In this document: in pieces, positions 3,001 to 32,419 of the stretch
How the letters are laid out: each line of letters starts with the position of its first letter
Numbering within the stretch: position 1 is the first letter of the stretch
Program-made: the position numbers and the translations under genes
The notes under the pieces: model-generated
Database searches by the model: none
What the model was told of the DNA's origin: nothing
The model's input: the letters and a program-made list of their open reading frames with translations, nothing else
DNA from: Saprospiraceae bacterium
Lineage (GTDB): Bacteria; Bacteroidota; Bacteroidia; Chitinophagales; Saprospiraceae
Reading direction: 5' to 3'
Assembly (NCBI GenBank): GCA_020630525.1
Contig: JAHDBF010000005.1
Coordinates: forward strand, 1 to 45,352
DNA length: 45,352 nt

Positions 3001-5723
3001 AATACAGTATTAGGTAAATCGTAAGTACATCCATTCGTAAATGTAACTACTCCATTTACAGTAACTGTACCATTTGTAGCCACTTGTATTTGAGGCATTA
3101 AGTCAGTAGAATTTGTAATACTTCCATTGTCATCAAAAGTCCATGATACGCTTTCGATTTCATATCCATCAGGGAATGTCGGCAGTGATAGATCAACGAT
3201 AAATCCTTCTTCGATGCATTCTGCAACACTGAATCCTATTGATCCATTGATAAAACCACCATCTAATGCTATTTCTTCATTATAGCTAAAGACACATCCA
3301 TTGCTATAGGTAACCGTAGCAGTGATATTTGCATCACCTACTAATCCATTAATGTCTACAGGATTTCCTTGATAATTAAAAGTCTCCCCATCAACTACTA
3401 CAATCCAGTCTACATTTTCTATAGTACCATTAATAACGCTATACAGTTCTAAAATCTCTAAGGTTTGACCTGTTGTCAGTTCACAATCTTCTCCATTACC
3501 ACCAGAGCCATTTCCTCCAGTATTGTCACCTGGTACAGATACAACGATATCAAAATCAGGCGTCAAGTTGTTATTATCATTTCCTTCTGGAATTCCTCCA
3601 TCTCCTAAGATCGAAGGTCCAAAACTATACGTACATCCAGAATCACCATATACAGTTCCAGAGACTGTGGCAAATCCATTGTTAGGTATTTGTAAAGTTG
3701 GATTTAATTCATTTGATAAAATCGTATCTCCATTTATTACAATAATCCAATCAGCACTAGTAACAGTAAAATTTACTGTTGGAGGAGACAAAGTTACTGT
3801 GTAATTTTCTGCTCCACATTCATCGACTACATAACCAAATTCTGGTTCTCCGTTATTACTTCCTGTACCACCACCTAAGTCGAAAGTTTCCGAATTTTCA
3901 AAAACACAACCATTGTCAAATGTAACGATTACAGTTACGATTGCCTGTTCAGTAATGTCAGATCCAATATCTACAGGGCTGCCTTCATATGTCGTGATTA
4001 CGCCATTTTGGTCTACAGACCATGAAACGGAAATTATGTTTCCATCAATTGATCCGCCTGTTGCCATTAGTTCTAAAGTCTGATTATCAGATGAGATACA
4101 TCCACCTTCAGTACCTATCGATGTTCCTGAAATGGTAATATCTAAGTTTGGCACTAACTCATCATATACACTTACCGTTGTATTGGTAGTTTGAGAAGCA
4201 CAACCATTTGTATAATTTACAAAAAATTCTACTTCAAAAAGATCTGCTTCACTCACGATATTTATTGATTCAGTATCATAAGTAGTTGTTGTGCCGTCAG
4301 CAGTAATTGTCCAGTTATAAGAAGATACAACATTATTCCCATGATCAGAATTATCCGAAATAGAAATATTAAAACCATCATCAGTACAAGCAGTCAATGT
4401 CGCATCAAAATCTACGTTAGGGTGTGCTAAATCAAATATAGAAATATTCTCTTGGATATCATTTAGCGTACAACCAGTCGAACCTGTTCCAAATAAATCT
4501 ATGTCTAAAAAGTCATTTTCATTTAATTCTAACAAAACCGTTTGCTCGGTAAATGTTAGTTCTTGGCCATCATTTACTGCAACTGTCCATACAATATCTT
4601 GGACGGTAGTGCCATCAATATCTAGAATGTTATTAGATAATTCTAACTGTACATTTTCGCCATCACATTGAAGAACAGTCAATTCCATTCCCCCAGTGAG
4701 TCCATTTTCATATGCTGCAATCTGTACTTCAAAAGGAGCTGCTGAGCACTCCCCATTATCAGCTTCTAAGTGTACGGTATAATTACCTTCCTCTAAGTAA
4801 GTAACACTTGGGTTTTGCTCAGTTGAACTTGGTGTTAAATTTGGCCAATCAAAATACCAAATTAAATTATCAACATTTTCACTATTGTTTGTAAATGAAT
4901 AAGTTAATCCTGTGCAATTTTCCTCATTCACCTCAAAAGCAATATTTCCGTTTGATCCAGTGCCTCCATTCCCATCAAAACCATTTTGACAGTGACTAGT
5001 AAGAATAGATATTTCGTCTAAGTCCCAAACTGCTATATCTGCAATTTCACCAGCAGCACAGTATGCCGTCAATTCAAAATTAAAAGTCGTTTCTTCTGTG
5101 ATTGTAAATGCTGGATTATCAGTAAAATCAAAAGATTCTAAAGACCATTCTTGAGTTGTAAATTGATCAATTTCATGAAAAACTTCTGTTCCATTTACCA
5201 ATACCCGAACTGCGTATCTTGTTGGATAATTATTAGGTCCAGAAATTCCACCAATGTAACTAAAATTAAAAGGTGCCAATTCATAAAAAGACAATGCCTC
5301 TAACATACTAGGACCAGTGATCGGATCGATCGTTATATCAAATCTTACTGCCGCATCACTACCAGGAGTGTACAGACAATTTGTATCATAACCAACACAC
5401 ATTCCTGCAGAATCACCAATTCCTGGAGTACAAGAGTGAGGATTTGCAGTAGGTTCATTTCTATATAAATGCCCTCCTTCTACGCCTACTTGGATACAAG
5501 GATCATCGACGGACGAGGACGCAGTAAATTCTGTATAGTCAACATTTGTTCCTGTGATGGTATTTGAGATACAATCGTTAAAATCAAATGTTAGTGTAGC
5601 AGCTATGGCGTCACCGGAATTGGTTCCATCTGCACTGGGACACTGAGCAATTAAGTTGATTGAGAAACAACTAATTATTGCTATAATTAAAGTATGTATT
5701 GTCGACATTAGCTTCATAGCCAT
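60..5723 (-). CDS. Giant secreted adhesin-like protein with T9SS type B sorting domain (gliding motility-associated C-terminal domain)
   Basis: This 1887-residue protein is predicted to be exported by the type IX secretion system and held at the cell surface. Visible parts in order: a signal peptide ending near INLIAQ; an N-terminal region of about 220 residues that resembles a beta-sandwich; a PKD-like domain near residues 270-335; a long array of Cys-containing Ig-like modules, three of which form a roughly 200-residue repeat; a second PKD domain with WDFGDG; and a C-terminal type B CTD (IPNAFSPNQDGNND, YDRWGEEIF, GWDGT). It is the last gene of a three-gene operon, 14 nt after the OmpA-like gene. 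In Flavobacterium the type B cargo SprB needs the PorP/SprF-family protein SprF, so the neighbour is a plausible dedicated partner. The adhesive role is inferred, as no ligand-binding motif is evident. Start choice is uncertain: Met1, Met3 or Met6 all leave a usable signal peptide. Confidence 0.9.
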   Translation of the reverse strand: MAMKLMSTIHTLIIAIISCFSINLIAQCPSADGTNSGDAIAATLTFDFNDCISNTITGTNVDYTEFTASSSVDDPCIQVGVEGGHLYRNEPTANPHSCTPGIGDSAGMCVGYDTNCLYTPGSDAAVRFDITIDPITGPSMLEALSFYELAPFNFSYIGGISGPNNYPTRYAVRVLVNGTEVFHEIDQFTTQEWSLESFDFTDNPAFTITEETTFNFELTAYCAAGEIADIAVWDLDEISILTSHCQNGFDGNGGTGSNGNIAFEVNEENCTGLTYSFTNNSENVDNLIWYFDWPNLTPSSTEQNPSVTYLEEGNYTVHLEADNGECSAAPFEVQIAAYENGLTGGMELTVLQCDGENVQLELSNNILDIDGTTVQDIVWTVAVNDGQELTFTEQTVLLELNENDFLDIDLFGTGSTGCTLNDIQENISIFDLAHPNVDFDATLTACTDDGFNISISDNSDHGNNVVSSYNWTITADGTTTTYDTESINIVSEADLFEVEFFVNYTNGCASQTTNTTVSVYDELVPNLDITISGTSIGTEGGCISSDNQTLELMATGGSIDGNIISVSWSVDQNGVITTYEGSPVDIGSDITEQAIVTVIVTFDNGCVFENSETFDLGGGTGSNNGEPEFGYVVDECGAENYTVTLSPPTVNFTVTSADWIIVINGDTILSNELNPTLQIPNNGFATVSGTVYGDSGCTYSFGPSILGDGGIPEGNDNNNLTPDFDIVVSVPGDNTGGNGSGGNGEDCELTTGQTLEILELYSVINGTIENVDWIVVVDGETFNYQGNPVDINGLVGDANITATVTYSNGCVFSYNEEIALDGGFINGSIGFSVAECIEEGFIVDLSLPTFPDGYEIESVSWTFDDNGSITNSTDLMPQIQVATNGTVTVNGVVTFTNGCTYDLPNTVLGEGGEPGGNDNNNLTPDFEIVIISGGNPGDGSDNGDPDCVLIPQGQVIQINETNSVIDGSIESVEWIITLNGESFPFEGNPVDIGGLIGEATITTVITYSNGCVFEYTQDLELPGGNGVDFEYEVTGCEDDGSVNVTLAPPSNLPEEFEIDSISWNININGVESVSNEINPQINIPVDGSAIIQTTIYFSNGCTVTTNTQTLNESDLVPEISISGQLADGVECGDDPLLYVFTVSPSATEVSWTYMQGGEIINANGNPIQIELTPGETIDISATATFFDNCISSTTQEFTASDGDDSLLPTFNGDPVIDCDGDETSLILDGNPNWNYTWEPTDGLSFNDNINFSDPIVSVTEITTYNVTVTDGSCVSTGSVIVVPEALAIPNIIIGGDGTGLFCDGLVELTIDNAINGVNYIWSTDPNFENIIGEGSTLQWDVDQSGPITVYAIIDGAQNANCDVSSSTEIINGTINLGQDDPLVLCPGDTIAYEIPNNYPDQEITLVWEDHPNLISVDENGVPTVGAGTDDFSINFTASNQYGCTSDEVLNVQIGENQQLSFTFDLVECGETALIFTASGMGQDSILNWDFGDGQTSTEFMPTNVYDSIGTYTVTLEDLSSICPGISASMDITVPSLPEVIIGIGEDTLISENNPVELSATSGSVLDSISWCNAMGEVIGTGANISYEVDSLETVFAKVVDQYGCSDTTSVVVIIDTIIVEPPLCDSLIISGPAEPFGPCAGQEFNLEVNTSIIAGSDFTYVWGPEECIVSGQGESVITVSVDAEPKVFTVQLVDNAEICIDTINLTYEVDPITIEIDITKEGNDPLILGDSCTITVNGIVEGDDILWNTGETTPSIIVYPNNDLNEYSVVVTDENGCQGEASILKPFVTPPCTVPEGIFIPNAFSPNQDGNNDVFLVRSHIIQPENYEFFVYDRWGEEIFRSTGIGNGWDGTLNGERLSPDVYAYCLKATCIDGTEINHSGNVSLIK
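2380..3845 (-). repeat. In-frame ~600-bp (about 200-residue) tandem repeats inside the adhesin gene
   Basis: Similar modules recur about every 600 bp on the minus strand. Phrases such as LTPDFDIVV / LTPDFEIVI, GNPVDINGL / GNPVDIGGL and YSNGCVF return at this spacing, preceded by a Gly/Asn-rich linker (GNDNNN). DNA similarity is also visible, for example around 2935-2990 and 3540-3600. Boundaries are approximate. Confidence 0.7.
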
Positions 5724-5737
5724 TTAGCTTATTTCTG

Positions 5738-8179
5738 TTAATTTAATTTTCTTACACTGACAATCTGAGCTTTACGTTCTTCAGATGCCTCTACACTGTA
5801 AATTGATTTTCTAACATTCGAATTTGAATCACTTACTTGGCTTGGAGCTAACTCTTCACCAAATGATAAATCTGTAACAATCAAGCTACCAGAGTCAAGG
5901 AATGTTCCGAAAGAACCACTGGCATAATCAGTCAATTCGTTTCTTAAACTATATACCCTTCTTTGGCCTAATGCAAGGTTGTATTTGTTAGGGGCTTTCG
6001 GGCTTGTAAAACCTCTAATTGATACTTCGAATCTTTCTCCTCCACGTAGTCTGTCAAGCAATTTATCTAAAAATACTTGTAGTTTGTTGTATTCTCCTTG
6101 AACACGTTCTGTAAAGAATATTTCTAATTCTTGTGATGCAGTATATTTCATATCTCCAGTAAGCGGAGCTGCATATTTTTCTTTAAATTCTTCTTTTTTA
6201 TCGAAATAAGGGAAGTAAGTTTCTGAATATGATTTCAGTGTATACAATTTATTACTTCTTTGGTCTGGTTTGTCATTATCAAAATATAAAGTAACTGGCA
6301 AGTAAATATTTAAATTTGGAACACCTAAGTAGATCTTTTTCAGAATATTCGTGCCTATGTTTGGATCACAAGTGTCGATGATTAGCGTTTGTGGTTCAAA
6401 CCCATCTTTTGCAATCGTAACTCTATATTTTCTGCAAGGTTCTAATTCAAATTGGAAATCGTTTCCTAATTCATTTAATCTAATTATATCAGAAATTTCA
6501 GGATTGTCTACATCTTCTAAAATTACCGTTACTCCTGATAAATCTTCTTTAGTATTAGCGTCAAATGTTAAAATATCTAGTGTTATAACTTGAGGCTCTA
6601 AGTATAGTTTTTTGATTATATCTTCACCCTTCTTAGCGTTACGTGTATTTACAGAAATTGTATCAGAACTATAGCCATCTCTTTCAGCGATGACTTGGTA
6701 TTCTCTTCCAGATTTTAGGTCAAATTCGTGATCTATTCCATCAATGTTAGTAAACGAAGCATATTCTTCCCCAGTAGCAACATCTATAATTCGAACAGTA
6801 ACTTTTGAGAGCGAATCAGAAGTGGCTTTATTAAATGTAAGTGCATTAAATTTAATATCAAACTCTTCTATATCTACTGAATAAATGTCATAACAACATG
6901 CTTCAACCATATCTTCTAGATACTGTGAACCTATTCTATTTGAGGAGATGTGCCCTTTGTCCCCATTACCATTCAATGTAAAATATAAATCATTAAAACT
7001 AGAGTTGACTGGTAATCCCATATTCTCAATATTGACGATATCACCATTTTCTGTATAATCACTTCGGAACACATCGTAACCGCCGATCCCTAAGTAACCA
7101 TCTGAACTAAAGTAAAAAGTATTACTTTCTTTATGGAAAAATGGAGTAGCTTCATTTTCCCCTGTATTGACTGAGGAAAGATTGATAGGCTCACCGAATT
7201 CTGAACCAGACTCTATTGTAGAGTACCAAATATCTAACTTGCCTTGTCCTCCTTCTCTATCTGAAACAAAGTATAATATTTCTCTCCCCGAGTTTGCATC
7301 ATATCCAATGTTTGGCTGCGTAGAAGTACTTCCTGCCATATTGATTGATGATGGAAGTTTCGAGCCTGTACCAAAATTACCTTCTTCATCAATAGACTTA
7401 TAATAAAGATCACATCTGATATCAGTACTATTTAAATAAGCGCACACAGTGTAGTAAATACGTGTGTGGTTCATATTAAATGCTGAGTGAGCAACTAAAG
7501 AAGTTGTTGTATTAATATCACCATCAAGTACCTCACCAGAATCTTCTAAATTGGTTTTTAACAATTTACTTAATTGAGGAGAAGGCGTTAATGAAGGTTT
7601 AGCTTCTGGGTTGTCAAATCTTAGTGAAGAATAATAAAGGTCATCTTCATATTGATAAGCACCGAATTCTGAATATGGTGTATTTACAAGCTGACCAAGG
7701 TTTTCTACTTTAATGTGCTCAGCTTCTTTATCTTTCATGTCAATAGCATATTCGCATGCTTCTGACTCTTTAGATGCTCGATTAGTTAGGTATTCCCCTT
7801 CTGCTCCAAACTCTGATTTATATAACTCGTAGTTGGTTTTTGCTTCATCGTATTGACCCAATCTTTGGTACATTTCAGCCAAATAATATTGAGCTTGTGG
7901 ATACTTATTTTCTGTATCTAGTGCTATTGTCTTTTTGTATTGTTCTGCTGAATATTTGTATGCATTAAAATTTCTTCCTGCCTCTGCCGCTGCATACGCG
8001 ATATCTAAGTTTGTAGTATCAAATTCTAAAGCGGTTCTGTAATAATGTAATGCAGAATAATAATCTTTAGTCTCTAATGCTCTTTGTGCTGCTTCGGTGA
8101 ATGCTTTTTGAGTTTGAGAAAAAGCAATAGTACTTAATCCAAGCAGATAGACTGATAATATGACGTTTTTCAAGTTCAT
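5738..8179 (-). CDS. TPR / PD40 beta-propeller / OmpA-like envelope protein, T9SS-associated (PorE-like architecture)
   Basis: This is an 813-residue exported protein with a signal peptide ending near TIAFSQ. TPR-like helical repeats occupy roughly residues 25-135. A WD40-like/PD40 propeller follows at roughly 165-430 (ILYFVSDREGGQGKLDIWYS and NTFYFSSDGYLGIGGYDVF are typical blades). Two carboxypeptidase-regulatory-like beta domains come next, with matching phrases ATGEEYASF and REYQVIAERDGY / RKYRVTIAKDGF. The C-terminal region is OmpA-like (FDNDKPDQ; FEVSIRGFTSPKAPNKYNLA). The peptidoglycan-binding Arg of the OmpA helix seems present (GQRR), but the usual Asp before it is not obvious. The same domain order is known for PorE of Porphyromonas, which links the T9SS to peptidoglycan. 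It lies 21 nt after porP and 14 nt before the adhesin. The peptidoglycan anchoring role is inferred. Confidence 0.88.
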   Translation of the reverse strand: MNLKNVILSVYLLGLSTIAFSQTQKAFTEAAQRALETKDYYSALHYYRTALEFDTTNLDIAYAAAEAGRNFNAYKYSAEQYKKTIALDTENKYPQAQYYLAEMYQRLGQYDEAKTNYELYKSEFGAEGEYLTNRASKESEACEYAIDMKDKEAEHIKVENLGQLVNTPYSEFGAYQYEDDLYYSSLRFDNPEAKPSLTPSPQLSKLLKTNLEDSGEVLDGDINTTTSLVAHSAFNMNHTRIYYTVCAYLNSTDIRCDLYYKSIDEEGNFGTGSKLPSSINMAGSTSTQPNIGYDANSGREILYFVSDREGGQGKLDIWYSTIESGSEFGEPINLSSVNTGENEATPFFHKESNTFYFSSDGYLGIGGYDVFRSDYTENGDIVNIENMGLPVNSSFNDLYFTLNGNGDKGHISSNRIGSQYLEDMVEACCYDIYSVDIEEFDIKFNALTFNKATSDSLSKVTVRIIDVATGEEYASFTNIDGIDHEFDLKSGREYQVIAERDGYSSDTISVNTRNAKKGEDIIKKLYLEPQVITLDILTFDANTKEDLSGVTVILEDVDNPEISDIIRLNELGNDFQFELEPCRKYRVTIAKDGFEPQTLIIDTCDPNIGTNILKKIYLGVPNLNIYLPVTLYFDNDKPDQRSNKLYTLKSYSETYFPYFDKKEEFKEKYAAPLTGDMKYTASQELEIFFTERVQGEYNKLQVFLDKLLDRLRGGERFEVSIRGFTSPKAPNKYNLALGQRRVYSLRNELTDYASGSFGTFLDSGSLIVTDLSFGEELAPSQVSDSNSNVRKSIYSVEASEERKAQIVSVRKLN

Positions 8180-17000: not shown

Positions 17001-19797
17001 TGAGCAATTTATCACAACAACAGATAACTCTCCGCCAACATTTATCTACTGCCCAGATGACTTAGTATTGGATGGAGGAGCATGGTGTGATGCTGTTGCA
17101 GCATGGGGACCAGTAACCGCAACTGACAATTGTCAATTGCCGAATATTACATCTAATTATACTTCTGGAGTAGTATTAGGTGCAGGAGTTACAGAAATTA
17201 TTTATACTGCAACTGATGCTTGTGGAAACCAAAGTACATGTTCTTTTAATGTTATAGTTACATGTAATGATCCTTGTAATCAACCACCAGTAATCAATTG
17301 TCCAGGATCAGTTACATTATGTCCAGGATCAGCTTACGATCCATCGATAACTGGAAATGCGACAGCTACCCCAAGTAATAATTGTAGCACTGATATAGAT
17401 ATTATTTATCATGACCAAATTATCACAAATGGTCCTTGTACTGGAGCAATGGTTATTGAGAGAACTTGGACTGCCAAAGATCCAATGGATCCTAGTCTGC
17501 AGAGTCATTGTACACAAATCATAACATTAGGAGACAATATTCCACCAGCTATCTGGGAATGTCCTACTGATATAACAGTAAATTATGGAAGTGCTGCAAC
17601 TTGGTATTTGCCAAGTGCTGATGATAACTGCGGAGTCCAAAGTTTAGTATCTACACACGATAGTGGTACTGTTTTCCCTGTGGGTGTAACAACTGTCACA
17701 TATACTGCTGAAGATTTCTGTGGTAATGTAGTAGATTGCCATTTTAACGTAACAGTATTGGGACAGTCAGGTCACTTAGAATGTCCAGATGATATTTCTG
17801 TGCAGTGTGCTGCATCAGGTGGTACGTACGTAAACTGGAATACACCAAGTTATACAGGAGGAAGTTGTGGTGATTGTAACGATCAACAGATTAGCGGATT
17901 TATGTATATGGGATCGTACAATGGTCACCAATATTACTGCTCATTAAATCCTGCAAATTGGAACACTGCAAGTAGCATCTGTCAAGCGAATGGTGGATAT
18001 TTAGCAGCCATAGATGATGCAGGAGAAAATGCTTTCTTAGCGAATATATTGACTATTCAATCAGCATGGATAGGAGGAAACGATTTGAATAATGAAGGCA
18101 CTTTTGAATGGACTAACGGATCACCATTTAATTATACCAACTGGTATCCAGGACAACCTAACAATTACAACTATGACCAACATTGTGTAGAGATGTTACA
18201 CGATGGGACTTGGAACGATCAGTATGCAATTACGCAATTAGAATTTATTATGGAATTACCATGTTCTTCTGTACACCAAATTTCTGGTCCTCAGCCTGGA
18301 TCACATTTAGAGCCAGGAGTGTATGAAGTTGTTTATCAATTGGATGAATCGTGTGGAACAGAAACTTGTTCATTTAATGTTCGAGTTGAATCTTCGATTA
18401 CAATGAAATGCCCAGATGATGTAACGATTGCTTGTCCATCTGGAGCATCAGGAGTACATATTAACTGGGATACGCCAGTAGCAAGCTCTTGTTGTTCTGA
18501 TTGTGGATTGGGTGGCAATATCCCTGGATTTATGTATATGGGTACGCATAATGGACATTATTATTACTGTTCATTAGACCCTGCGACTTGGCCGCAAGCC
18601 AATTCTATAGCGCAAGCAAATGGTGGATATTTGGCAGCAATTGGAGATGAAACAGAAAACGAATTTTTAGCTGGTATACTTACAATACAGTCAGCGTATA
18701 TTGGTTTAAATGATGCAAATAATGAAGGTCAATTTACTTGGTCTAATGGTGAGCCATTTGGATATTCAAATTGGTACCCACAACAACCAAACGACTATAA
18801 CGGATTCCAAGACTACGTTGAGTTATTAAGTAATGGTCAATGGAATGATCAATACAATAATCAACCATTAGAGTTTATTATGGAAATTCCAGGTTGTATT
18901 AATATTCAACAGATTGGTGGACCAGCAGCAGGTACTTATATTGCAGGAGGAACGACTACAACGATCACCTATCAAGCGACTGATGATTGTGGAAATGTTG
19001 AAACATGTTCATTTAATGTCACTGTTGATAAAAATGAGTGTAATTCTGGAGGTTTGAATTCAGATGTTTGCTGGATAGAACACATTGGTTTTGGTGACAT
19101 TAACAATACTACTGGAAGCGATGGAGGTTACGAAGATTATACAAACCAATGTACAACTGTACAACCTGGCATTGCTTATCCAATAAGTTTAACTCCTTGG
19201 TGTACATCAAATCAACACAAGGTATTTTGGAAAGTATGGATCGACTTCAATATGGATGGAGATTTCAATGATAATGGAGAATTCGTTGCATATGGTAATG
19301 GAGCAGGCACTATTAATGGGAATATTACCATGCCTTTATCAGGAATATGGTCTGGTTCTACGACGATGAGAATAGCCATGAAGTTGGGGACATATCCTAC
19401 TGGACCTTGCGAGGTATTCAGTCATGGAGAAACAGAAGATTATTGCTTAGAAATAATCAATGCTGATGTTAAAGGTGATGACACGATCGAATTAAGATCA
19501 AGCGATAAAGAAAATGAAGCAATATTATTGGTGGGATCAAAAGAAGAAATTGATACTAAGTTTCAAATTTCTCCAAATCCTGCCACTGATTTTATACATG
19601 TTCAATTTTCTAATATTGATAAAATTATTGAATCAGGAATTTATAATGTTGCCGGGAAAAAGATTATGAGTATTGAAAACCTGAATGATGAATATATCAG
19701 AATAGCGTTATCAAAAATTGAAAACGGGATTTATTTCCTAAATGCAATTTATGAAAATGGGAAAGTTGAAACGCAACGATTTATCGTTCAAAAATAA
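14065..19797 (+). CDS. Giant secreted HYR-repeat protein with two C-type lectin domains, GEVED domain and T9SS type A sorting domain
   Basis: This protein of about 1,910 residues is predicted to be surface-exposed. After a signal peptide come seven units of about 170 residues. Each unit is a Cys-rich module (ITCPxxxxxC ... RTWTATDP) followed by a HYR domain (DNCGI ... TTVTYTAxDxCGN). Two further HYR domains each carry an inserted C-type lectin domain with WIGGND/YIGLND, QPN and WND motifs. Then come a GEVED domain (WIDFNMDGDFNDNGE; GETEDYC) and a type A sorting domain (ISPNPATDFIHVQF ... FIVQK). QPN plus WND suggests Ca-dependent carbohydrate binding, so a glycan adhesin is likely (inferred). 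The ORF track starts at GTG 14035. I prefer ATG 14065, which gives a normal signal-peptide n-region, though GTG cannot be excluded. A strong terminator follows. Confidence 0.9.
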   Translation: MIITKQRFWQIGHALLLLIIISTNLRSEIQPNLCLDANLKLNENSIMDCNTAPVITCPSLYFGCVGDSTDPADIGYATAIPGDSGCEQPIVTYQDFIEVNEDCYYELHRLWTAKYPGDANPWLYADCTQIIVLKDDKAPTIGACPADFSINSTANCHGTAKWNDPIPNDNCGLASFEVNYPSGSSFPIGTTTVIYVATDNCGLSTTCSFDVTVIGECCDAAPIITCPNDVLVCPNSSTTPSLTGQATAVSGSSECNGPIEITYTDNIQALGDCDNSYKITRTWMAFMMSDPTLFSTCQQTINVRDLESPVTLSCSGNINVEADGSSAIVNYDEPTFSDNCGIDNIHSTHSSGDYFPLGCTTVTYTAYDVCGNVTACSFVICVEDTSCQTAPVITCPPNRMRCPGTGAAGYHPNSTGYATATAGGTNCGDPIVSYSDDYHDMPGCPGGMKIYRTWTATDPEDPTLFSTCLQMINLNDPVSPTVVTCQPDITVETTESGMNVNWTTPPTFTDNCGIENVSSTHVNGQFFTIGTTTVVYTATDMCGNSTSCSFNVTVNQLACNAPPIITCPPNRMRCPNAPNAAYHPNSTGYATAVAGGDHCGEPIITFTDVEEDMPGCIQGRKIYRTWKATDPENPGLVSTCTQIINLNDPISPTVVCADDVVVNSTDNNSVIVSFENPTFSDNCGIHEITCSHQSGDTFPVGITTVTCSAEDYCGNTVSCSFEVDVRLIECATAPIISCPEDATLCVNGDYTPSALGFATATSGGLNCGNPIVSYIDIIIENGPCNSPKVIHRKWTATDPNNSALSSLCYQTINLIDTEAPVVIGCSGDISATGGPNCDVAVTWEAPVVTDNCSNVTVTSNYQSGDIFYGGNTEVIYTFTDACGNQSSCSFHVIVACGSFGCAEVPTINCPADKYLCVGSETNPSVTGHATATPGLSSCEEPIVSYTDVIMSTGPCAGAKVIKRIWKAEDPIDGTIFSTCEQFITTTDNSPPTFIYCPDDLVLDGGAWCDAVAAWGPVTATDNCQLPNITSNYTSGVVLGAGVTEIIYTATDACGNQSTCSFNVIVTCNDPCNQPPVINCPGSVTLCPGSAYDPSITGNATATPSNNCSTDIDIIYHDQIITNGPCTGAMVIERTWTAKDPMDPSLQSHCTQIITLGDNIPPAIWECPTDITVNYGSAATWYLPSADDNCGVQSLVSTHDSGTVFPVGVTTVTYTAEDFCGNVVDCHFNVTVLGQSGHLECPDDISVQCAASGGTYVNWNTPSYTGGSCGDCNDQQISGFMYMGSYNGHQYYCSLNPANWNTASSICQANGGYLAAIDDAGENAFLANILTIQSAWIGGNDLNNEGTFEWTNGSPFNYTNWYPGQPNNYNYDQHCVEMLHDGTWNDQYAITQLEFIMELPCSSVHQISGPQPGSHLEPGVYEVVYQLDESCGTETCSFNVRVESSITMKCPDDVTIACPSGASGVHINWDTPVASSCCSDCGLGGNIPGFMYMGTHNGHYYYCSLDPATWPQANSIAQANGGYLAAIGDETENEFLAGILTIQSAYIGLNDANNEGQFTWSNGEPFGYSNWYPQQPNDYNGFQDYVELLSNGQWNDQYNNQPLEFIMEIPGCINIQQIGGPAAGTYIAGGTTTTITYQATDDCGNVETCSFNVTVDKNECNSGGLNSDVCWIEHIGFGDINNTTGSDGGYEDYTNQCTTVQPGIAYPISLTPWCTSNQHKVFWKVWIDFNMDGDFNDNGEFVAYGNGAGTINGNITMPLSGIWSGSTTMRIAMKLGTYPTGPCEVFSHGETEDYCLEIINADVKGDDTIELRSSDKENEAILLVGSKEEIDTKFQISPNPATDFIHVQFSNIDKIIESGIYNVAGKKIMSIENLNDEYIRIALSKIENGIYFLNAIYENGKVETQRFIVQK
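14215..17765 (+). repeat. Seven in-frame ~510-bp repeats (170-residue Cys-rich + HYR units)
   Basis: Units begin near 14218, 14722, 15229, 15739, 16256, 16770 and 17281, each with a version of AP(I/V)ITCP. Units 3 and 4 are the closest pair: both share CPPNRMRCP, YHPNSTGYATA and STCxQxINLNDP. Regular spacing and graded similarity point to expansion by unequal exchange. Confidence 0.9.
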
Positions 19798-24544: not shown

Positions 24545-25492
24545 TTAAAGATTTATGGACATACCAATGGTAAAATAAGAAATTCCATATCCCAATTCTG
24601 CAAATGGTTCAAAACGATCAGTAAGCTGATATCGCAACCCAGCCAATCCTGACCAAAAGATATAATTACTAGTTCCATCACCACAAAATGGCTCACAATC
24701 TCCTCCGAATGAGACTAATGTATATCCTAACATTAAACCAGCATATGGATCAAATTTATCACCCAACAAATCAAAGTGATATGTTCCTCTAGCACCAAAG
24801 ATCAAGTATCTATAATTCCAATCGTAACCATCTACATTTCCAAAGTTTGAAGTTGCAAACCCTGCATACCCGCCTAGCTTAATATTTTTCTTAAATGTTC
24901 TATTATAAGACAAAGAGACTGGAGGAATCCCTCCTGACCCACCAAAATTAGACAAGAATCCAACTCCGAAATTTAAAAAACTTCTACTTTCACTTGAAGC
25001 TATCTTAAGCTTGGCTGGATTATCTTTTTTATTAGATTCTTTTCTAGACTTTGTATCAGAGTCATTTGAAATCTTGCTATTCTTATTATTTTTCGATTTT
25101 CCATTATCATCCTTATTCACTTTATTATTTTCAAATTCACTATGACTAGCATCAACCAAAGAGTTCTCCATTTTTATGTTTGTCACATCCAACCTTTTCC
25201 AAGTATTCTTTTTATTGGTAGATGTATTGTAAGTAATCAAAGTGCTTCCAGAAATGACTTCCAAAAATAAATTTTCAATCTCAGAACATTTATATTTAGT
25301 ATCAGAAACTTGATCATAATATCTGTAAGAATCTTGATTGTCTATCTTAGTCTTGATACCATTCTTTGTGGCTTCTATTAGTTTAACAGTTTTTGTTGGT
25401 TCATATTCCCAATTGCCAATGGCTGATTGTGCCTGGACAGTCGAACACATTATTTGCAAAATTAGTATTGTAAAAATTAATTGATATTTCAT
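24545..25492 (-). CDS. Outer-membrane beta-barrel protein with N-terminal domain and Lys/Asn-rich linker
   Basis: This 315-residue exported protein has a signal peptide ending STVQAQ. A short N-terminal beta-rich region (about 23-100) is followed by a strongly charged, low-complexity linker (about 105-165; KSKNNKNSK, SRKESNKKDN). A C-terminal barrel domain (about 170-315) has alternating aromatic/Gly strands (YAGLMLGYTLVSFG, GLRYQLTDRFEPFAELGYG) and ends in SINL. It is the last gene of the pseudokinase operon, 29 nt after the acidic repeat protein. The barrel family resembles OmpW/porin-type 8- to 10-stranded barrels. Its ligand is unknown. Confidence 0.78.
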   Translation of the reverse strand: MKYQLIFTILILQIMCSTVQAQSAIGNWEYEPTKTVKLIEATKNGIKTKIDNQDSYRYYDQVSDTKYKCSEIENLFLEVISGSTLITYNTSTNKKNTWKRLDVTNIKMENSLVDASHSEFENNKVNKDDNGKSKNNKNSKISNDSDTKSRKESNKKDNPAKLKIASSESRSFLNFGVGFLSNFGGSGGIPPVSLSYNRTFKKNIKLGGYAGFATSNFGNVDGYDWNYRYLIFGARGTYHFDLLGDKFDPYAGLMLGYTLVSFGGDCEPFCGDGTSNYIFWSGLAGLRYQLTDRFEPFAELGYGISYFTIGMSINL

Positions 25493-25521
25493 AGTTATAA
25501 TTATTTAGTTTAGGGTGAATG

Positions 25522-26922
25522 TTATGAGAAAAAACATATATCTACTGAATCGAATAATAAGTCGCTTTGATCAAAATTATATATCAAATCATCTATAATA
25601 TATGTTTCACTATTTTGATCAATAATACCATCTGTATCTGAATCTAATTCATCATCTAAATCATTGTATTTTTGTGCGCTATTATAATCTTGCTGATTGA
25701 CTTCTATAATACCATCATTATTGGTGTCCAAATTTAAAGTAGATGAATCCATCACTTCAAAACCGTGATCAATAATTCCATCTGCGTCTTTATCTAAATC
25801 TTTACCTGAATATGAATAAAACTCTTGACTATCATCTATTATGCCATCATTGTGTGAATCTAAAGTTATTGATGAAGAATTTGGGTCTATGTGATTCAAG
25901 CTTTCTGATTCTACGTCAATAATTCCATCATCATTTGAATCTAATAATTTGTCATCAATTTCCTCCAAACTAATCAATGCTTCGGTTGCTTCATCGTTGT
26001 CTTCTTTATACCTTTCTTTAGCATCGTTTTCTACTAGACCAATATTTGATTCAATATTATTTTCATTATCAAATTCAATAGAATGAAACTCATCATTAGT
26101 TATCGTTTTATCTTCCTCTGAAGCAAAATGACCAGAATTGCTTTCGTCAATTTCGTATGAATCTTGATTTATAGAATTGAGATTTTCATCTACCCTATCA
26201 TCATAGGTATTTTCTTCCGTAATAAACCACTCTTCATTTTTAAGTTTATTATTTGGTCTAAGTTCAGATTGTGTTTCTGAATCATTTTCAATTACAATAG
26301 ATTCAGGACTAGACTCTATAAATTCTGGCTCTTCTTTCGTTTCATAATCTATTGATTCACTTTGACTCTCATTACTGACGCCTATATATTCAGAATTGCC
26401 GTCAATTTGTGATTTGTAATCATCAACTGGAATACCATCGTGATTATCATAAGAGTCAGAAATATAAGTACTAAGTTCCTCCTTTAATAAAGTATTGTAT
26501 TTGCTTCCTCGCCATTCGAATTCGCCATAAGGTCCCATTTCATTTCTTGCATTTATAAAAGCATCTTTAAAAGAAAATTCAAATTCGTTGTTTATTTCTT
26601 CTGAGTTGGCAATGTCTTCATTTTCATTTAAATCCACATTTATATCATCTTTTGCAGTTTGATAATCTTCGAGCCAAACATTATCATCTTGTGCCGCGGA
26701 TTTTTCCTGCTGTACTTCGCTAATCATCTCTTCATTAACTTCTATCTCAGCAACATTTATGACTTTCTCTGACGTTGTATTATCAGTACTTTTAAAAGGG
26801 CTATCACATGATTGTGTTAACAAAGGAATAGTAGCACCACCAAAAAGGATTTTTGATGCTTGTTTTTTATCATTCAATAATGATTTGAAAAATTGTTGTT
26901 TTGTGTTTTTTCTATCTTTCAT
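25522..26922 (-). CDS. Acidic protein with five DxxxDGII[D/E] (TSP3/EF-hand-like) repeats
   Basis: This 466-residue protein is dominated by Asp, Glu, Asn and Ser. The N-terminus (SKILFGGATIPLLTQSC) resembles a weak lipoprotein signal with Cys39, but the lipobox is poor and the n-region unusually long. The middle (about 45-310) is unstructured and acidic. The C-terminal 150 residues hold five copies of L-D-x-x-x-D-G-I-I-[DE] spaced 22-35 residues, the calcium-loop pattern of thrombospondin type 3 and dockerin repeats. Calcium binding is therefore likely. It lies 4 nt after the zinc-ribbon membrane protein and 29 nt before the barrel gene. No enzyme domain is visible and I do not recognise the family. 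Confidence 0.75.
   Translation of the reverse strand: MKDRKNTKQQFFKSLLNDKKQASKILFGGATIPLLTQSCDSPFKSTDNTTSEKVINVAEIEVNEEMISEVQQEKSAAQDDNVWLEDYQTAKDDINVDLNENEDIANSEEINNEFEFSFKDAFINARNEMGPYGEFEWRGSKYNTLLKEELSTYISDSYDNHDGIPVDDYKSQIDGNSEYIGVSNESQSESIDYETKEEPEFIESSPESIVIENDSETQSELRPNNKLKNEEWFITEENTYDDRVDENLNSINQDSYEIDESNSGHFASEEDKTITNDEFHSIEFDNENNIESNIGLVENDAKERYKEDNDEATEALISLEEIDDKLLDSNDDGIIDVESESLNHIDPNSSSITLDSHNDGIIDDSQEFYSYSGKDLDKDADGIIDHGFEVMDSSTLNLDTNNDGIIEVNQQDYNSAQKYNDLDDELDSDTDGIIDQNSETYIIDDLIYNFDQSDLLFDSVDICFFS
25615..25950 (-). repeat. Five in-frame Ca-loop-like repeats in the acidic protein gene
   Basis: Repeats read LDSNDDGIID, LDSHNDGIID, LDKDADGIID, LDTNNDGIIE and LDSDTDGIID. The core DGII[D/E] is invariant while the linkers differ in sequence and length, so selection on the loop is more likely than recent DNA duplication. 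Confidence 0.88.
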
Positions 26923-26926
26923 TCAA

Positions 26927-27511
26927 TTAGAATTTAATATCGCATTTAGAATTATTGCAGGATTTTTTACCTTTCCAATAGGTATAACTTTGATTTATTA
27001 ATGTACTATAACATTTAGGGCATACTAGCTTATTCTCGTATTGTAATTTTAGATTATCTAGCTTTTCCATTTTTTTAATCGCATGATTATCTAAAGAACC
27101 AATAAGCATTGAGAAAAGTCCGATCGAAAGAAAAAGTACATACTTAATGTTATCTGGAATACTTTGTCCAAATTGAAAAAGAATTAATATGGCTAAAATT
27201 ATCATTGCAATTTTTACAAAAATCAATTTTGATTTACTACTGATAATTTCATTTCTATGGTCTTGATAATCTTTGTAGTCCTCTAAAACAGATTGAAAGA
27301 GATTCGTATAATTTGGTTCTATATTTTGATCTAAATTAGTATTTGCCTTTACAACTAAATCTTTGATTTCTATAGGTACTAATTTTAATATTTTTCTTTT
27401 ACCATAGTGTCTATTTGATGATTTCGCATTATAGACATTCCGTCCATCGCAAATTGAGACTCGAGAAAAACTATTTGTATTTTTTGAATATTCGAGAGTT
27501 CCAATTACCAT
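26927..27511 (-). CDS. Two-TM membrane protein with C-terminal zinc ribbon (pseudokinase operon)
   Basis: This 194-residue protein has no signal peptide. A soluble N-terminal region (about 1-92) precedes two predicted transmembrane helices (about 96-115 and 122-140). A C-terminal four-Cys module follows: CPKC (164, 167) and CNNSKC (185, 190), a zinc-ribbon-like knuckle. A hairpin topology would put both the N-terminal region and the zinc ribbon in the cytoplasm, where the pseudokinase is. Its start overlaps the end of the pseudokinase gene by 7 nt, so translation is probably coupled. I do not recognise a named family, and a membrane docking role for the pseudokinase is inference. Confidence 0.78.
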   Translation of the reverse strand: MVIGTLEYSKNTNSFSRVSICDGRNVYNAKSSNRHYGKRKILKLVPIEIKDLVVKANTNLDQNIEPNYTNLFQSVLEDYKDYQDHRNEIISSKSKLIFVKIAMIILAILILFQFGQSIPDNIKYVLFLSIGLFSMLIGSLDNHAIKKMEKLDNLKLQYENKLVCPKCYSTLINQSYTYWKGKKSCNNSKCDIKF

Positions 27512-28365
27512 TTCTTATTCCTAGATTTTAATGATGAATTAGAATTACTAAAATACTTTTTCAGAGTTTCATGTATTACTTTAATGTTTAAGTCTTTACG
27601 TAAACGATCTTTATTAAGCATTAAGCAAATAGCATTTTTTATTTCTAAAGGCATTTTTGATTCTGAAAATGTTAAGGTACTATTTATCAATTTTTGAATA
27701 TTCTTTTCTTTCAATTGATTCCCACCCAAAATCATTATAGGGCATTTATTTCCGTATAACTCGAACATAATTAATGCCAAAGACCACAGGTCACTTTGAT
27801 AAGATGCAATCCCGTATTTAAGAAATTCTGGAGAACGATAATTTAAGTATTTATTTAAAAGAACTTGGCGTCTATTTGATTGATTAGGCCCATTCAAATT
27901 TGATATTATTGGAATTAAATCTCTTCCATTTTTTGACATTAGTACATTGTACTTATTAATGTCACCAATAATTACCGACGCATTATGCAAGTGAGTAATT
28001 CCAGCTATTAGCCCATTTAACACTCTATTCTTTTGATATAATGTTAATTCAGATGACCCAAAATAATCAGACAACGTATTACTGCAATCAATAGATAATT
28101 CTGTGAAATGTTGGCTTTTCTTTTTAAAACTAATTTTAAAACACTTAGTTACGTCAACAATATTTTTATGCTTAGAAATACTTTTTAGTAATGAATACTC
28201 TTTGATAAGAAATTTTCGATGATCTTTGGTAATAGGTGTTTTGAGTGTAACCTTTTCTTTAGTATCCGACTTTACAACTTCGTAATAAATATAGTTGTCA
28301 ACTATTTTTTTACCATTCGTACTTAGCGGAAATTGATATGACTTTAGAAAATTTATAAACTTCAT
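27505..28365 (-). CDS. Ser/Thr protein kinase-like protein, predicted pseudokinase
   Basis: This 286-residue cytoplasmic protein has a protein-kinase fold. Retained: the VAIK-type Lys42 (VTLK), a likely alphaC Glu56, the catalytic-loop Asp135 and Asn140 (GDINKYN), SPE178-180 (the APE motif) and SDLWSLALIMFELYG (DxWxxG-type F helix). Lost: the Gly-rich loop (no GxGxxG before Lys42), His-Arg of HRD (replaced by Ile-Gly), Lys of the DxK motif (Asn137) and the DFG motif (IISNLNG, with no Mg-binding Asp in either register). I therefore predict a pseudokinase acting as a scaffold or allosteric sensor. It heads a four-gene operon just downstream of the LytTR regulator, with its own -7 box. Weak residual activity cannot be excluded. 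Confidence 0.85.
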   Translation of the reverse strand: MKFINFLKSYQFPLSTNGKKIVDNYIYYEVVKSDTKEKVTLKTPITKDHRKFLIKEYSLLKSISKHKNIVDVTKCFKISFKKKSQHFTELSIDCSNTLSDYFGSSELTLYQKNRVLNGLIAGITHLHNASVIIGDINKYNVLMSKNGRDLIPIISNLNGPNQSNRRQVLLNKYLNYRSPEFLKYGIASYQSDLWSLALIMFELYGNKCPIMILGGNQLKEKNIQKLINSTLTFSESKMPLEIKNAICLMLNKDRLRKDLNIKVIHETLKKYFSNSNSSLKSRNKKW

Positions 28366-28473: not shown

Positions 28474-29205
28474 TTACCGAACATCTATTAATTTGGTAAT
28501 AACGGCATCTTTTTTCCTTACAGAAACTGGAATATTTGTACCTGTCGTTAATACTATTACGCCTTCTTTATCATAACTATCTGCAAAATCAATATTAACC
28601 AAATAGGATTGGTGACAACGGACAAAATTAGCAGGAAGCCCTATATCATACTCTTTAATATTTTTAGAAGTAATAAACTCTCGACCATCAGTTAAAAAGA
28701 ATTTTGTATAGCTGCCTTCTGACTTGCAGTATGTCAATTCATTTAACCTCACCACTTGATATTTATCGTGAAAATGTAAGACTATTTTATCAATTGTGCC
28801 TACTAATTTTTTCTTACTTATCTCAAGCCTTTCTTTTAATAAAAGTTCTTTTTTTAAGTCTATCTTTTGAATTGCAGATTTTAATTCAAAAGAAGAAATA
28901 GGTTTTAGTAAATAATCAATCGCACCAACTTTCAGGGCCTGAAGTGCATATTCGTGGTAAGCAGTAATAAAAATTACATTAACTCCTTCTAATTCAATTC
29001 TATCCAAAAAATCAAATCCAGTACCATCTGGCATATTAATATCTAAAAAAATTAGATTTGGCTTGGTAGATCTAGTGACTACAATAGCGTCTGAGATGTT
29101 TTCACACTCGCCAACAATCTCTAGAGTATCTGCATGTGCTTCTAACAAACTTCTAAGTCCTGATCTAACAAAAGGTTCATCATCAACAATAAGTGATCTT
29201 ATCAT
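28474..29205 (-). CDS. LytTR family response regulator
   Basis: This 243-residue regulator has an intact receiver domain: acidic pair in IVDDEP, phospho-acceptor Asp55 in LIFLDINMPDG, Thr in FITAYHEYA and Lys in DYLLKP. A LytTR DNA-binding domain follows (about 138-243; KIVLHFHDKYQVVRLNEL, YCKSEGSYTKFFL, RCHQSYLVNID). LytTR proteins bind paired direct repeats about two helical turns apart. Its start overlaps the histidine kinase stop by 4 nt. It ends 108 nt before the pseudokinase operon. A LytTR-like direct repeat stands upstream of the whole operon at 32528-32558. Confidence 0.95.
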   Translation of the reverse strand: MIRSLIVDDEPFVRSGLRSLLEAHADTLEIVGECENISDAIVVTRSTKPNLIFLDINMPDGTGFDFLDRIELEGVNVIFITAYHEYALQALKVGAIDYLLKPISSFELKSAIQKIDLKKELLLKERLEISKKKLVGTIDKIVLHFHDKYQVVRLNELTYCKSEGSYTKFFLTDGREFITSKNIKEYDIGLPANFVRCHQSYLVNIDFADSYDKEGVIVLTTGTNIPVSVRKKDAVITKLIDVR

Positions 29206-30680
29206 ACTATTCTTTTTATTGGTATTGCTAAGGTTACAATTGTGCCAGTACTTTCTTCTATGTTATTAATCTCAAATTTACCCTTAGTATTTAATTGCTG
29301 ATTTAAAATATTAATTCTTTCGGAAGTTATCTTTTGCGAAAGTGAATTTTTAGTAGCATTAATAGATTTGAATTCTGGATAATAGCCCTTACCATTATCT
29401 ACAATTTTACATTGTAGCAAATCATTACTAATTTCCATCTTAACTGTAATGAGTCCTTTTTTATCTAATCCACTTATTCCGTGTTCAATTGCATTTTCAA
29501 CAAAAGGTTGTATCATCATTGGAGGAATACACATTATACTGGAATTGATTGCAGGATCAACTTCAATTGAGTAATTGAATTTATTAAAAAAACGTAATTG
29601 CTGTAATTTAAAATACGAATGTAAGGTATCCAACTCTGAATCTATAGATACGAATTTTTTATACGCATTACTAAAAACTTGAAACAATAACTTAGAAAGC
29701 ATCTCTAAATATTCAACTGCTTGGACACTCTTCCCTCTAAGTACATGTGAATGAATTGCAGTCAGAGCGTTAAAAATAAAATGTGGATTCATTTGTTCTT
29801 GTAGAATGCTTTGTTCTAGTTCAATAGTTTGATTTTCCAATTGTTTTTTAACAATAGAAATTTTATAATTGTAAATTATGTAGTAAAACATCATTGACAA
29901 GAATAATATGATTCCTACAATTCCTATATTTTGAATTTTATACCTTCTTAATTCATTTAATCGATTTTTTTCTTGAATCAGTTTATATGATGTATGGCTT
30001 GTGCGAATTTTATTTATTTTATTATTAATTAAGCTATTAAGGATACTCTGCTTCTTGTTTTTATATAGTTCCTGATAAAGCTGTGCATTCAATATTTCAT
30101 TATTAAAAGTATAGTATTCATAATAAGTACTATATAGATTTTCATACTCCGTACCTCCTAAATATTTCGCATTTGTATGATGGATTGAATCCATTAAAAA
30201 AGATAAATACTCCTTTTCTGATTCAAACTCATGCTCATTTAGTATATATTTTTTGACTAAATTTAAATTCTTATTTTCAGTAATTCTAAAATTGTTTTTA
30301 AGAATATTAAAGACGAAATCGAATAAACTATTTGCCTTCTGATCAAGATCAATAACTTCATACAGTTTTGCTATTTGAGTAAGGTCATTGACATTCATCA
30401 CTAGTTCATCATACTGCTTACTAGGCTTTTCAACGATATTAGATTTAATAATTCTTTCTAGATTATTCAATTCTCTTACAAACTTTACATCATTTTGTAA
30501 TTCCAATTTCTTGTCTGATGATTTTATCACTTCAATCACCGATTCAAATTGTCCGGTTGATAAGGAATTATATATGGAGTCCATCGAAAATTCACTCATG
30601 CAAAACAATCTACTAGCTAATAGAATATATAATAGGCTAAGCGAGATTTTTTTTATTGTATGATTGGAAAATATTTTCAC
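29202..30680 (-). CDS. Sensor histidine kinase, LytS/YehU-type (His_kinase family), intact
   Basis: This 492-residue membrane kinase has an N-terminal signal/TM segment, a helical sensor region outside the membrane (about 30-245), a TM helix (IGIVGIILFLSMMFYYIIY) and the His_kinase domain. The phospho-accepting His300 sits in QMNPHFIFNAL. The N box (PPMMIQPFVENAIEHG) and G box (KIVDNGKGYYPE) are complete. It should phosphorylate the LytTR regulator encoded immediately downstream. It overlaps its neighbours by 4 nt on both sides. The stimulus is unknown. Confidence 0.93.
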   Translation of the reverse strand: MKIFSNHTIKKISLSLLYILLASRLFCMSEFSMDSIYNSLSTGQFESVIEVIKSSDKKLELQNDVKFVRELNNLERIIKSNIVEKPSKQYDELVMNVNDLTQIAKLYEVIDLDQKANSLFDFVFNILKNNFRITENKNLNLVKKYILNEHEFESEKEYLSFLMDSIHHTNAKYLGGTEYENLYSTYYEYYTFNNEILNAQLYQELYKNKKQSILNSLINNKINKIRTSHTSYKLIQEKNRLNELRRYKIQNIGIVGIILFLSMMFYYIIYNYKISIVKKQLENQTIELEQSILQEQMNPHFIFNALTAIHSHVLRGKSVQAVEYLEMLSKLLFQVFSNAYKKFVSIDSELDTLHSYFKLQQLRFFNKFNYSIEVDPAINSSIMCIPPMMIQPFVENAIEHGISGLDKKGLITVKMEISNDLLQCKIVDNGKGYYPEFKSINATKNSLSQKITSERINILNQQLNTKGKFEINNIEESTGTIVTLAIPIKRIV

Positions 30681-32419
30681 TTTAGTCCTTGATTATTTAG
30701 TATTGGGATTTTTAATAAATATTTAAAATCATCGTTAGACATAGATTCACCAATTGATATATTTTTTTTGCGGTCGAATACTTCGGTTATATTTTCCAAT
30801 CTTTGGATTGCCGCTTCCATCTCATCGGAAATAGAAAGTTCGGATTTTTCTAATACATATTTATCTCCATGTTTTTGATCAATAATTAGACATACAATAT
30901 TATTTTCCTCTTCCACAAAATTAATTTCATATTTAAAGTTTGTATTTGAATTTTGCTTTCCAATTTCTTGAAGATTTTCAACAAAAGGTTCTAGTATCAT
31001 AGAAGGCACAAAAATATTGGCAGAATCAATTTCATTTGAAATATTCGTTTTTAATTCAAAATTAAAATTAGGGTTTAACATTTTTAGTTTAAAATATTGA
31101 TTTATTGCTTCTATCTCTTCATCTAAAGGCCGAATAATTTCTCTTGAATTTTCTAAATTAAGCCTAATGGTTTTTGAAAATGTAGATAAATAATCCGCAG
31201 CTATTTTATTTTTACCTTCTTCAATAAATTGAACAATATTGTCTATTTCTCTAAAGATAAAATTTGAACTTAATTTTAACTTGAGTAACTTTTGCTCTTT
31301 TTTCAAAACATTGTTTAATGATACTTCTTTTACTTTATCTTGCCGAACTTGTTTTATTTTCAATAAGAATATCCCAAACAAGAGACCACCTAATGTTAAA
31401 ATTACATTCCGCGTCAATCTAGCAAATTTTAATGCATTTTTCTTTTCTTTAATGATTTCTTCCTTTTCTAACCCAATAGTATAATTGACTTCTTCAGTGC
31501 CCTTTGAAATTTCATCTTCAAAATTTTCGTCTATTAATTGTTGTTTTAGCACCATAAACTTTTTCACGGAATCCATCTCCCCAATAGATGTATACGATTG
31601 CATCAAGCCATCGTAGATTAGCGTTTTCAAGTCTTGCGGAATTTGATTATGAAAATAATTTCGACAAGAGTCTAACATTTCAATTTTCTTTTTAATCAAA
31701 GAAGGGGACTTATGATATCCTGCAACATTGAAATAACTTATCGCGATAATTTTCGCATCAGGAGTTTCTTTGCTTTTTGCAACCTCGATCGATTTGAGTC
31801 CGTAAATTATACTGCTATCAAGTTTACCCAAATTACGATAATACCTTGCCATATTATTATAGAAATACCCACTCAAAGGTTGCTTAGATTCAATTGAAAA
31901 TCTTTTGGCTTTTTCCAAAAGCTTAAATGCCTTTTTCTCACCACCTCTTTTATTCTCCATGGTACTCAAATTAATAAAAGACCGAATTAACATCGTAGTG
32001 TCTTTTAAAGATGAGTACACATTTATAGCTTTATTTAAAAACAATATAGACGTATCTATATTTCCAATTCTTAACTCAAAATGTGATTTATTCAAAAAAG
32101 CGCTTGCACTTAATGGACTGACTGTGTCAGACAAATTTAATTTTATTCGTTCGTATGTAATTTTTGCATTTGAAAAATCCGACAAAGAATTGTAGGCTTT
32201 AACCAATTCGATCAAATATTTCGTTTCTGATTGAGGATAATTTTGATCGACATACAATTCTTTTATTAGAATATCTTTTACTTCATTATAATTATTTTCT
32301 GCTATCAATGAGTCAATCTTTAAATCAAATTGACTTTCTTGACAATGTAGAAGATTGCCAATACTAAGTATCAAGAATAAACTTAAAGAATAAATAACAT
32401 CATTTTGAATTTGTCTCAT
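30677..32419 (-). CDS. TPR-containing degenerate (pseudo) sensor histidine kinase
   Basis: This 580-residue protein has a signal peptide (near NLLHCQ), extracytoplasmic TPR-like repeats (about 30-300), a TM helix (VILTLGGLLFGIFLL) and a C-terminal domain that aligns with the next gene's kinase. The H box reads LSSNFIFREID where QMNPHFIFNAL is expected, so the phospho-His is Asn386. The N box is partly kept (VPSMILEPFVENLQEIG), but the His-Gly is Ile-Gly. The G box is IIDQKHGDK instead of DNGKG. Phosphotransfer is therefore not expected. As first gene of a tightly coupled operon with an intact paralogous kinase, it is probably a heterodimer partner or sensory adaptor (inferred). Confidence 0.87.
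   Translation of the reverse strand: MRQIQNDVIYSLSLFLILSIGNLLHCQESQFDLKIDSLIAENNYNEVKDILIKELYVDQNYPQSETKYLIELVKAYNSLSDFSNAKITYERIKLNLSDTVSPLSASAFLNKSHFELRIGNIDTSILFLNKAINVYSSLKDTTMLIRSFINLSTMENKRGGEKKAFKLLEKAKRFSIESKQPLSGYFYNNMARYYRNLGKLDSSIIYGLKSIEVAKSKETPDAKIIAISYFNVAGYHKSPSLIKKKIEMLDSCRNYFHNQIPQDLKTLIYDGLMQSYTSIGEMDSVKKFMVLKQQLIDENFEDEISKGTEEVNYTIGLEKEEIIKEKKNALKFARLTRNVILTLGGLLFGIFLLKIKQVRQDKVKEVSLNNVLKKEQKLLKLKLSSNFIFREIDNIVQFIEEGKNKIAADYLSTFSKTIRLNLENSREIIRPLDEEIEAINQYFKLKMLNPNFNFELKTNISNEIDSANIFVPSMILEPFVENLQEIGKQNSNTNFKYEINFVEEENNIVCLIIDQKHGDKYVLEKSELSISDEMEAAIQRLENITEVFDRKKNISIGESMSNDDFKYLLKIPILNNQGLK

Follow-up and report, generated by a model that had tools for sequence, protein, structure and literature searches.

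Within the window (the whole stretch of 45,352 nucleotides analysed here, from a Saprospiraceae bacterium), four genes on the minus strand encode, in order, a kinase, a zinc-ribbon protein, an acidic protein and a barrel. The locus raises the question of whether these genes are a system of their own or a part of something larger. A sequence-only reading had taken the four tightly packed ORFs for one unit, and we could confirm the coordinates: the kinase and zinc-ribbon genes overlap by 7 nt, and gaps of 4 nt and 29 nt separate the zinc-ribbon gene from the acidic gene and the acidic gene from the barrel gene. All four frames, amounting to 1261 codons, were open, although stops make up about 9% of random codons at the same composition; the chance openness of each frame, from base composition, was 1e-8 to 5e-20. 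Promoter and terminator scans of the operon stayed at chance level. A FAD-binding monooxygenase-type gene follows downstream. In the list below, WRG is a label coined in this analysis for a domain of about 55 residues, common to the acidic protein and to the gene adjoining the zinc-ribbon relatives.

27505..28365, minus strand: Ser/Thr pseudokinase, 286 aa, kinase domain only, no TM segment or sensor domain (Pkinase E 2e-16)
26927..27511, minus strand: 2TM zinc-ribbon protein, 194 aa, member of the FHA-2TM-ZnR family with the FHA domain lost
25522..26922, minus strand: acidic protein, 466 aa, containing a WRG domain and, C-terminally, EF-loop-like DGII repeats (WRG profile match, repeat counts)
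26452..26592, minus strand: WRG domain core inside the acidic protein (E 1.9e-24 in the whole-genome search, with a profile that includes the window sequence; helix-hairpin-helix model)
24545..25492, minus strand: secreted protein, 315 aa, with a predicted C-terminal outer-membrane barrel (weak OMP_b-brl match)
28474..29205, minus strand: LytTR response regulator upstream of the operon, doubtful as a module member

We observed that the zinc-ribbon protein carries, as had been proposed, two transmembrane helices and a zinc ribbon, the latter with the pattern CPKC...C...C. In the same order, related proteins are longer and have an FHA domain in front, and the profile of this FHA-2TM-ZnR family matched solved FHA domains at 4e-13. 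Against the family, the C-terminal half of the window protein scored 92 bits, while the FHA part scored -0.7 bits. An AlphaFold prediction made with the family alignment left residues 1-62 unstructured but gave confident helices and a confident zinc ribbon, and the zinc ligands are retained. Among 69 proteins, the window protein is the sole one in which the His is missing from the FHA region. An upstream extension of the frame could not supply the domain, as the open frame is only 195 codons long and its N-terminus has no FHA signal. The protein is, as judged from its sequence, a truncated member of the FHA-2TM-ZnR family.

We further estimated how often the zinc-ribbon and WRG parts occur together. 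In separate searches of 399 genomes of the order, WRG was found in 8 and the 2TM-ZnR part in 9, and each of the 8 WRG genomes had 2TM-ZnR too, on the contig that carries WRG. Roughly half of them had contributed rows to the profiles, so the unbiased co-occurrence is that of G303, G050, G129 and G174, which have rows in neither profile. A scan of named genomes with five WRG sequences yielded 79 loci, in Bacteroides, Prevotella, Muribaculaceae, Spirosoma, Larkinella, Runella, Limnovirga and Saprospiraceae, and 77 of the 79 hold a WRG frame. The recurrent order was LytTR, FHA-2TM-ZnR, WRG, ZnR-FHA, PP2C and kinase. When neighbours within eight genes were typed with home-made profiles, PP2C lay near WRG in 67/77 loci, ZnR-FHA in 66/77 (and in 65/77 no more than two genes after it), kinase in 56/77, FHA-2TM-ZnR in 54/77 and LytTR in 30/77; these counts are lower bounds, since contig ends cut many loci. 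In the members sampled, Pfam agreed with the typing as FHA, PP2C, kinase or LytTR. In the Larkinella and Spirosoma loci the kinase is directly upstream of FHA-2TM-ZnR, as it is in the window. The congener G004 has LytTR, WRG, FHA-2TM-ZnR, a second FHA gene and a MORN-barrel gene in one cluster, together with a divergent PP2C; in other congeners the module is absent altogether. Adjacency of homologues, which the sequence-only reading had put forward as a check, thus held for the zinc-ribbon and acidic proteins, and for the barrel in one congener (G004).

Other genes accompany the module variably, namely C14 caspase-like, WG-repeat, CHAP, papain-like protease, BspA-type LRR and MORN genes. The C14 caspase-like gene was near WRG in 38/77 loci by a home-made profile, and Pfam confirmed it in some members. 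Secreted C14 peptidase genes were seen in or beside the module at L103:10608-11342, L083:10715-11440, L089:13439-14191 and L070:6947-7720. The papain-like (C1) protease was rejected as a constant of the module, being near WRG in 1/77 named loci. A C1 peptidase with a small lipoprotein-like gene was observed at L067:2354-4092 and L041:11035-12664, and the lipoprotein-like gene of L067 had a weak match to the chagasin-type inhibitors (I42, E 0.022). The WRG loci L081 and L118 have no PP2C or ZnR-FHA despite sequence continuing downstream, and are possibly further reduced copies.

When we compared the window with this module, we observed that the 2TM-ZnR protein adjoins the WRG protein and that a protein-kinase-fold gene is adjacent on the same strand. 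The FHA domain on the 2TM-ZnR protein was missing, and the PP2C and ZnR-FHA genes were absent from the window. A search of the whole genome gave no match for FHA, PP2C or a second Pkinase; the assembly is 100% complete by the tool's estimate, but as it is a draft of 220 contigs a PP2C or FHA gene may have been missed. All departures of the window copy from the module point in one direction. From sequence comparison, the four-gene operon is a reduced copy of an unnamed Bacteroidota-wide kinase/PP2C/FHA module, with the remaining membrane proteins intact. The proposal of an independent new system was therefore borne out in so far as the operon is a unit and the set is unnamed, but not as to its being isolated, and the composition that had seemed unique came about through the loss of the phospho-signalling parts.

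The kinase itself had been called a pseudokinase, and this was upheld by a Pkinase match (E 2e-16) with catalytic motifs lost. In the alignment, the G-loop, the HRD His, the HRDxK Lys and the DFG Asp are lost, whereas the VAIK Lys, the catalytic-loop Asp and Asn, the APE Glu and the subdomain-IX Asp are retained. By the features expected of an active eukaryote-like Ser/Thr kinase, it has the VAIK Lys and the HRD Asp but lacks the G-loop and the DFG Asp. The latter is a metal-binding residue and has become Asn; among 113 kinase rows aligned at this position, some of them duplicates of one locus, the window kinase is the sole one to lack it. It has no TM segment and no C-terminal domain; many module kinases have a TM segment, and several of those sampled have FGE or Sel1 domains. 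The sequence has diverged as far as 25% identity or less, and its branch in the tree is 5.9 changes per site against a median of 0.16, too long for the tree to place its parent kinase. The G+C of the gene by codon position (0.30/0.28/0.24) is the flattest profile in the window and would suit relaxed constraint. The pseudokinase was little informative as a search seed, the matches in relatives being scattered kinases of 21-31% identity. Its best match was a congener kinase of 1002 aa with Pkinase and a C-terminal FGE domain (L046:1672-4680), which adjoins a gene resembling, by eye, PorP/SprF-type membrane proteins.

The acidic protein also agreed with its earlier description as an acidic DGII-repeat protein, since D+E make up 26% of it and K+R 7%. 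Strict D-x-[DN]-x-[DNS]-G loops numbered 4, against a mean of 0.19 and a maximum of 3 in 5000 shuffles, and DSHNDGIID is a fifth DGII repeat outside the strict pattern. The repeats are EF-loop-like and putatively calcium-binding. The WRG core is retained in the window protein, and an AlphaFold model of the domain shows a helix, a beta hairpin and a helix. WRG had no significant relative in Pfam, NCBIfam or the PDB; a fold search of the PDB gave nothing below E 0.9, and the PDB held no sequence relatives. Assignment to DUF7167 or KRAB was discarded, as the weak Pfam matches occurred in just 6/50 and 3/50 members. Membrane attachment of the window protein is uncertain, because its N-terminal hydrophobic segment is weak (best 19-residue mean 0.86).

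For the barrel, the Pfam OMP_b-brl match was weak and below the cut-off (E 0.035). Its sole congener match was the MORN-barrel gene of the G004 module (28% identity over 139 aa, the G004 protein itself having been called a barrel by eye), and the barrel is therefore taken as part of the module in this genus. By prediction, the products of the operon plausibly span the cytoplasm to the outer membrane, as had been suggested.

The LytTR regulator lies 108 nt upstream of the kinase gene. It shares its strand and the interval 28474-32419 with two LytS-type histidine kinases, which overlap and of which one has TPRs; these genes have no close orthologue in the congeners. We evaluated them as operon members and did not retain them; the position fits that of the module LytTR but nothing else supports it, and membership is doubtful because the receiver of the regulator is canonical and histidine kinases of its own accompany it.

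Together, these results have led us to regard it as probable that the operon derives, in reduced form, from an undescribed trans-envelope kinase module of Bacteroidota and works as a scaffold, free of phosphorylation. In the parent module, the kinase would sit in the membrane with its C-terminal domain outside the cytoplasm and phosphorylate its module partners; PP2C would remove the phosphate and two FHA proteins would read the mark. On the outer side, the WRG protein would act together with secreted caspase-like, MORN, FGE and barrel companions. In the window copy, catalytic motifs, membrane anchor and sensor have been lost from the kinase and the FHA domain from the membrane protein, and PP2C and ZnR-FHA are missing. 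As the canonical phosphate writer, eraser and reader are all gone, the best reading of the pseudokinase is that of a docking protein, most likely a cytoplasmic scaffold for the 2TM-ZnR protein. The 2TM-ZnR protein may hold the WRG protein in an envelope complex, with the barrel tethered by the WRG protein. Such a complex would be constitutive, or controlled without phosphate. What we observed is the family membership, the conserved gene neighbourhood, the joint losses, the lack of further Pkinase, FHA or PP2C matches in the genome and the open frames; the physical complex, the topology and the scaffold role are what we infer for these proteins.

The main rival is that the operon is a decaying remnant, in which the phospho-signalling genes have been lost and four functionless survivors are now being lost in turn. 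The joint loss of the catalytic residues, FHA, PP2C and ZnR-FHA fits decay, as do the very long kinase branch and the congeners without the module, and decay stays a serious rival in view of the flat codon-position G+C. However, the four frames have stayed open though the kinase has diverged so far, and the retention of structural kinase residues, zinc ligands, the WRG core and open frames through such divergence favours function over decay, which we consider unlikely. It is considerably less likely still that the divergent kinase is catalytic, with other residues replacing the DFG Asp and the glycine loop. Some noncanonical kinases are active, and the VAIK Lys with the catalytic-loop Asp and Asn is in place; against this stand the change of the DFG Asp to Asn, the loss of the G-loop, HRD His and HRDxK Lys, and a genome without a PP2C or FHA partner. 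The proposal of an independent four-part system that informs the cytoplasm of envelope calcium or surface state is the most improbable, since, despite DxNxDG loops above chance (also a family trait) and parts predicted in successive compartments, those parts are homologous to a larger module in the same order and a cytoplasmic catalytic output is absent.

A scaffold-type derivative of the module also needs to be set beside known systems. Among its closest likenesses is the Bacteroidota FHA-2TM-ZnR/WRG/ZnR-FHA/PP2C/STK module itself, to which the window 2TM-ZnR and WRG proteins are homologous, adjacent and in the same order, with the kinase upstream as in Larkinella and Spirosoma and a barrel in common with the congener module; it differs in a kinase without catalytic motifs, TM segment or sensor, and in the missing FHA domain, ZnR-FHA and PP2C. 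The window operon follows the bacterial kinase-PP2C-FHA plan, but fails two defining features of an active module. In the T6SS threonine phosphorylation pathway PpkA/PppA/Fha1, a kinase, a PP2C and an FHA protein are likewise coupled to an envelope machine. However, no secretion genes were noticed in the loci as annotated, with profiles other than those of the T6SS, and the window has neither phosphatase nor FHA. TerY-P or Ter-associated kinase-PP2C-vWA triads bring kinase, PP2C and zinc-ribbon proteins together, as the module does, but no vWA or Ter genes were seen in the loci as annotated, with profiles of other families.

Inactive kinases, caspases and DGR-diversified sensors have also been described in conflict systems (PMC7159879, PMC10907252), and in one class of these systems most kinase domains have disrupted catalytic residues (PMC7159879). 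The parent modules resemble these systems in their C14 caspase-like genes and in FGE-type kinase C-termini, one of them DGR-diversified. In contrast, no vWA, MoxR or NTPase core was seen in the module, and caspase, FGE and DGR are all lacking in the window copy. In PADLOC, the 2TM-ZnR, WRG and ZnR-FHA proteins match no defence model; a known defence system was rejected, since the matches for the kinase and PP2C are to kinase- or phosphatase-containing models only.

In agreement with the earlier statement that no named system of this composition was known, the module has no name in Pfam, NCBIfam or PADLOC. We found no description of it in the open-access literature searched, though one may exist in subscription journals. 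As a tentative view of the whole, the parent may be an undescribed trans-envelope phospho-signalling system, ranging from gut Bacteroides/Prevotella to Saprospiraceae, with exchangeable kinase sensors (one retroelement-diversified) and secreted caspase-like proteases, the window core (pseudokinase, 2TM-ZnR, WRG and barrel) working without phosphorylation. On the main reading, the operon would be a natural knock-out of phosphorylation within a conserved module, in which the scaffold proteins outlast kinase activity, phosphatase and phosphate reader, so that structural and signalling roles would be separable. The locus moreover brings to light an unnamed module that is common among gut and environmental Bacteroidota. 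The new small WRG domain is its signature, and the module has links to caspase-like proteases and, at one locus, to a diversity-generating retroelement.

That retroelement lies beside a parent module in a Saprospiraceae MAG (L078) and comprises a reverse transcriptase, a template repeat and three variable copies (coordinates 5196-5317, 5972-6093, 6635-7573, 7584-7705 and 17103-17227). Substitutions in the variable copies fall at template adenines in 11/12, 13/18 and 10/14 cases, and one of the copies forms the FGE domain at the C-terminus of the Ser/Thr kinase belonging to this module.
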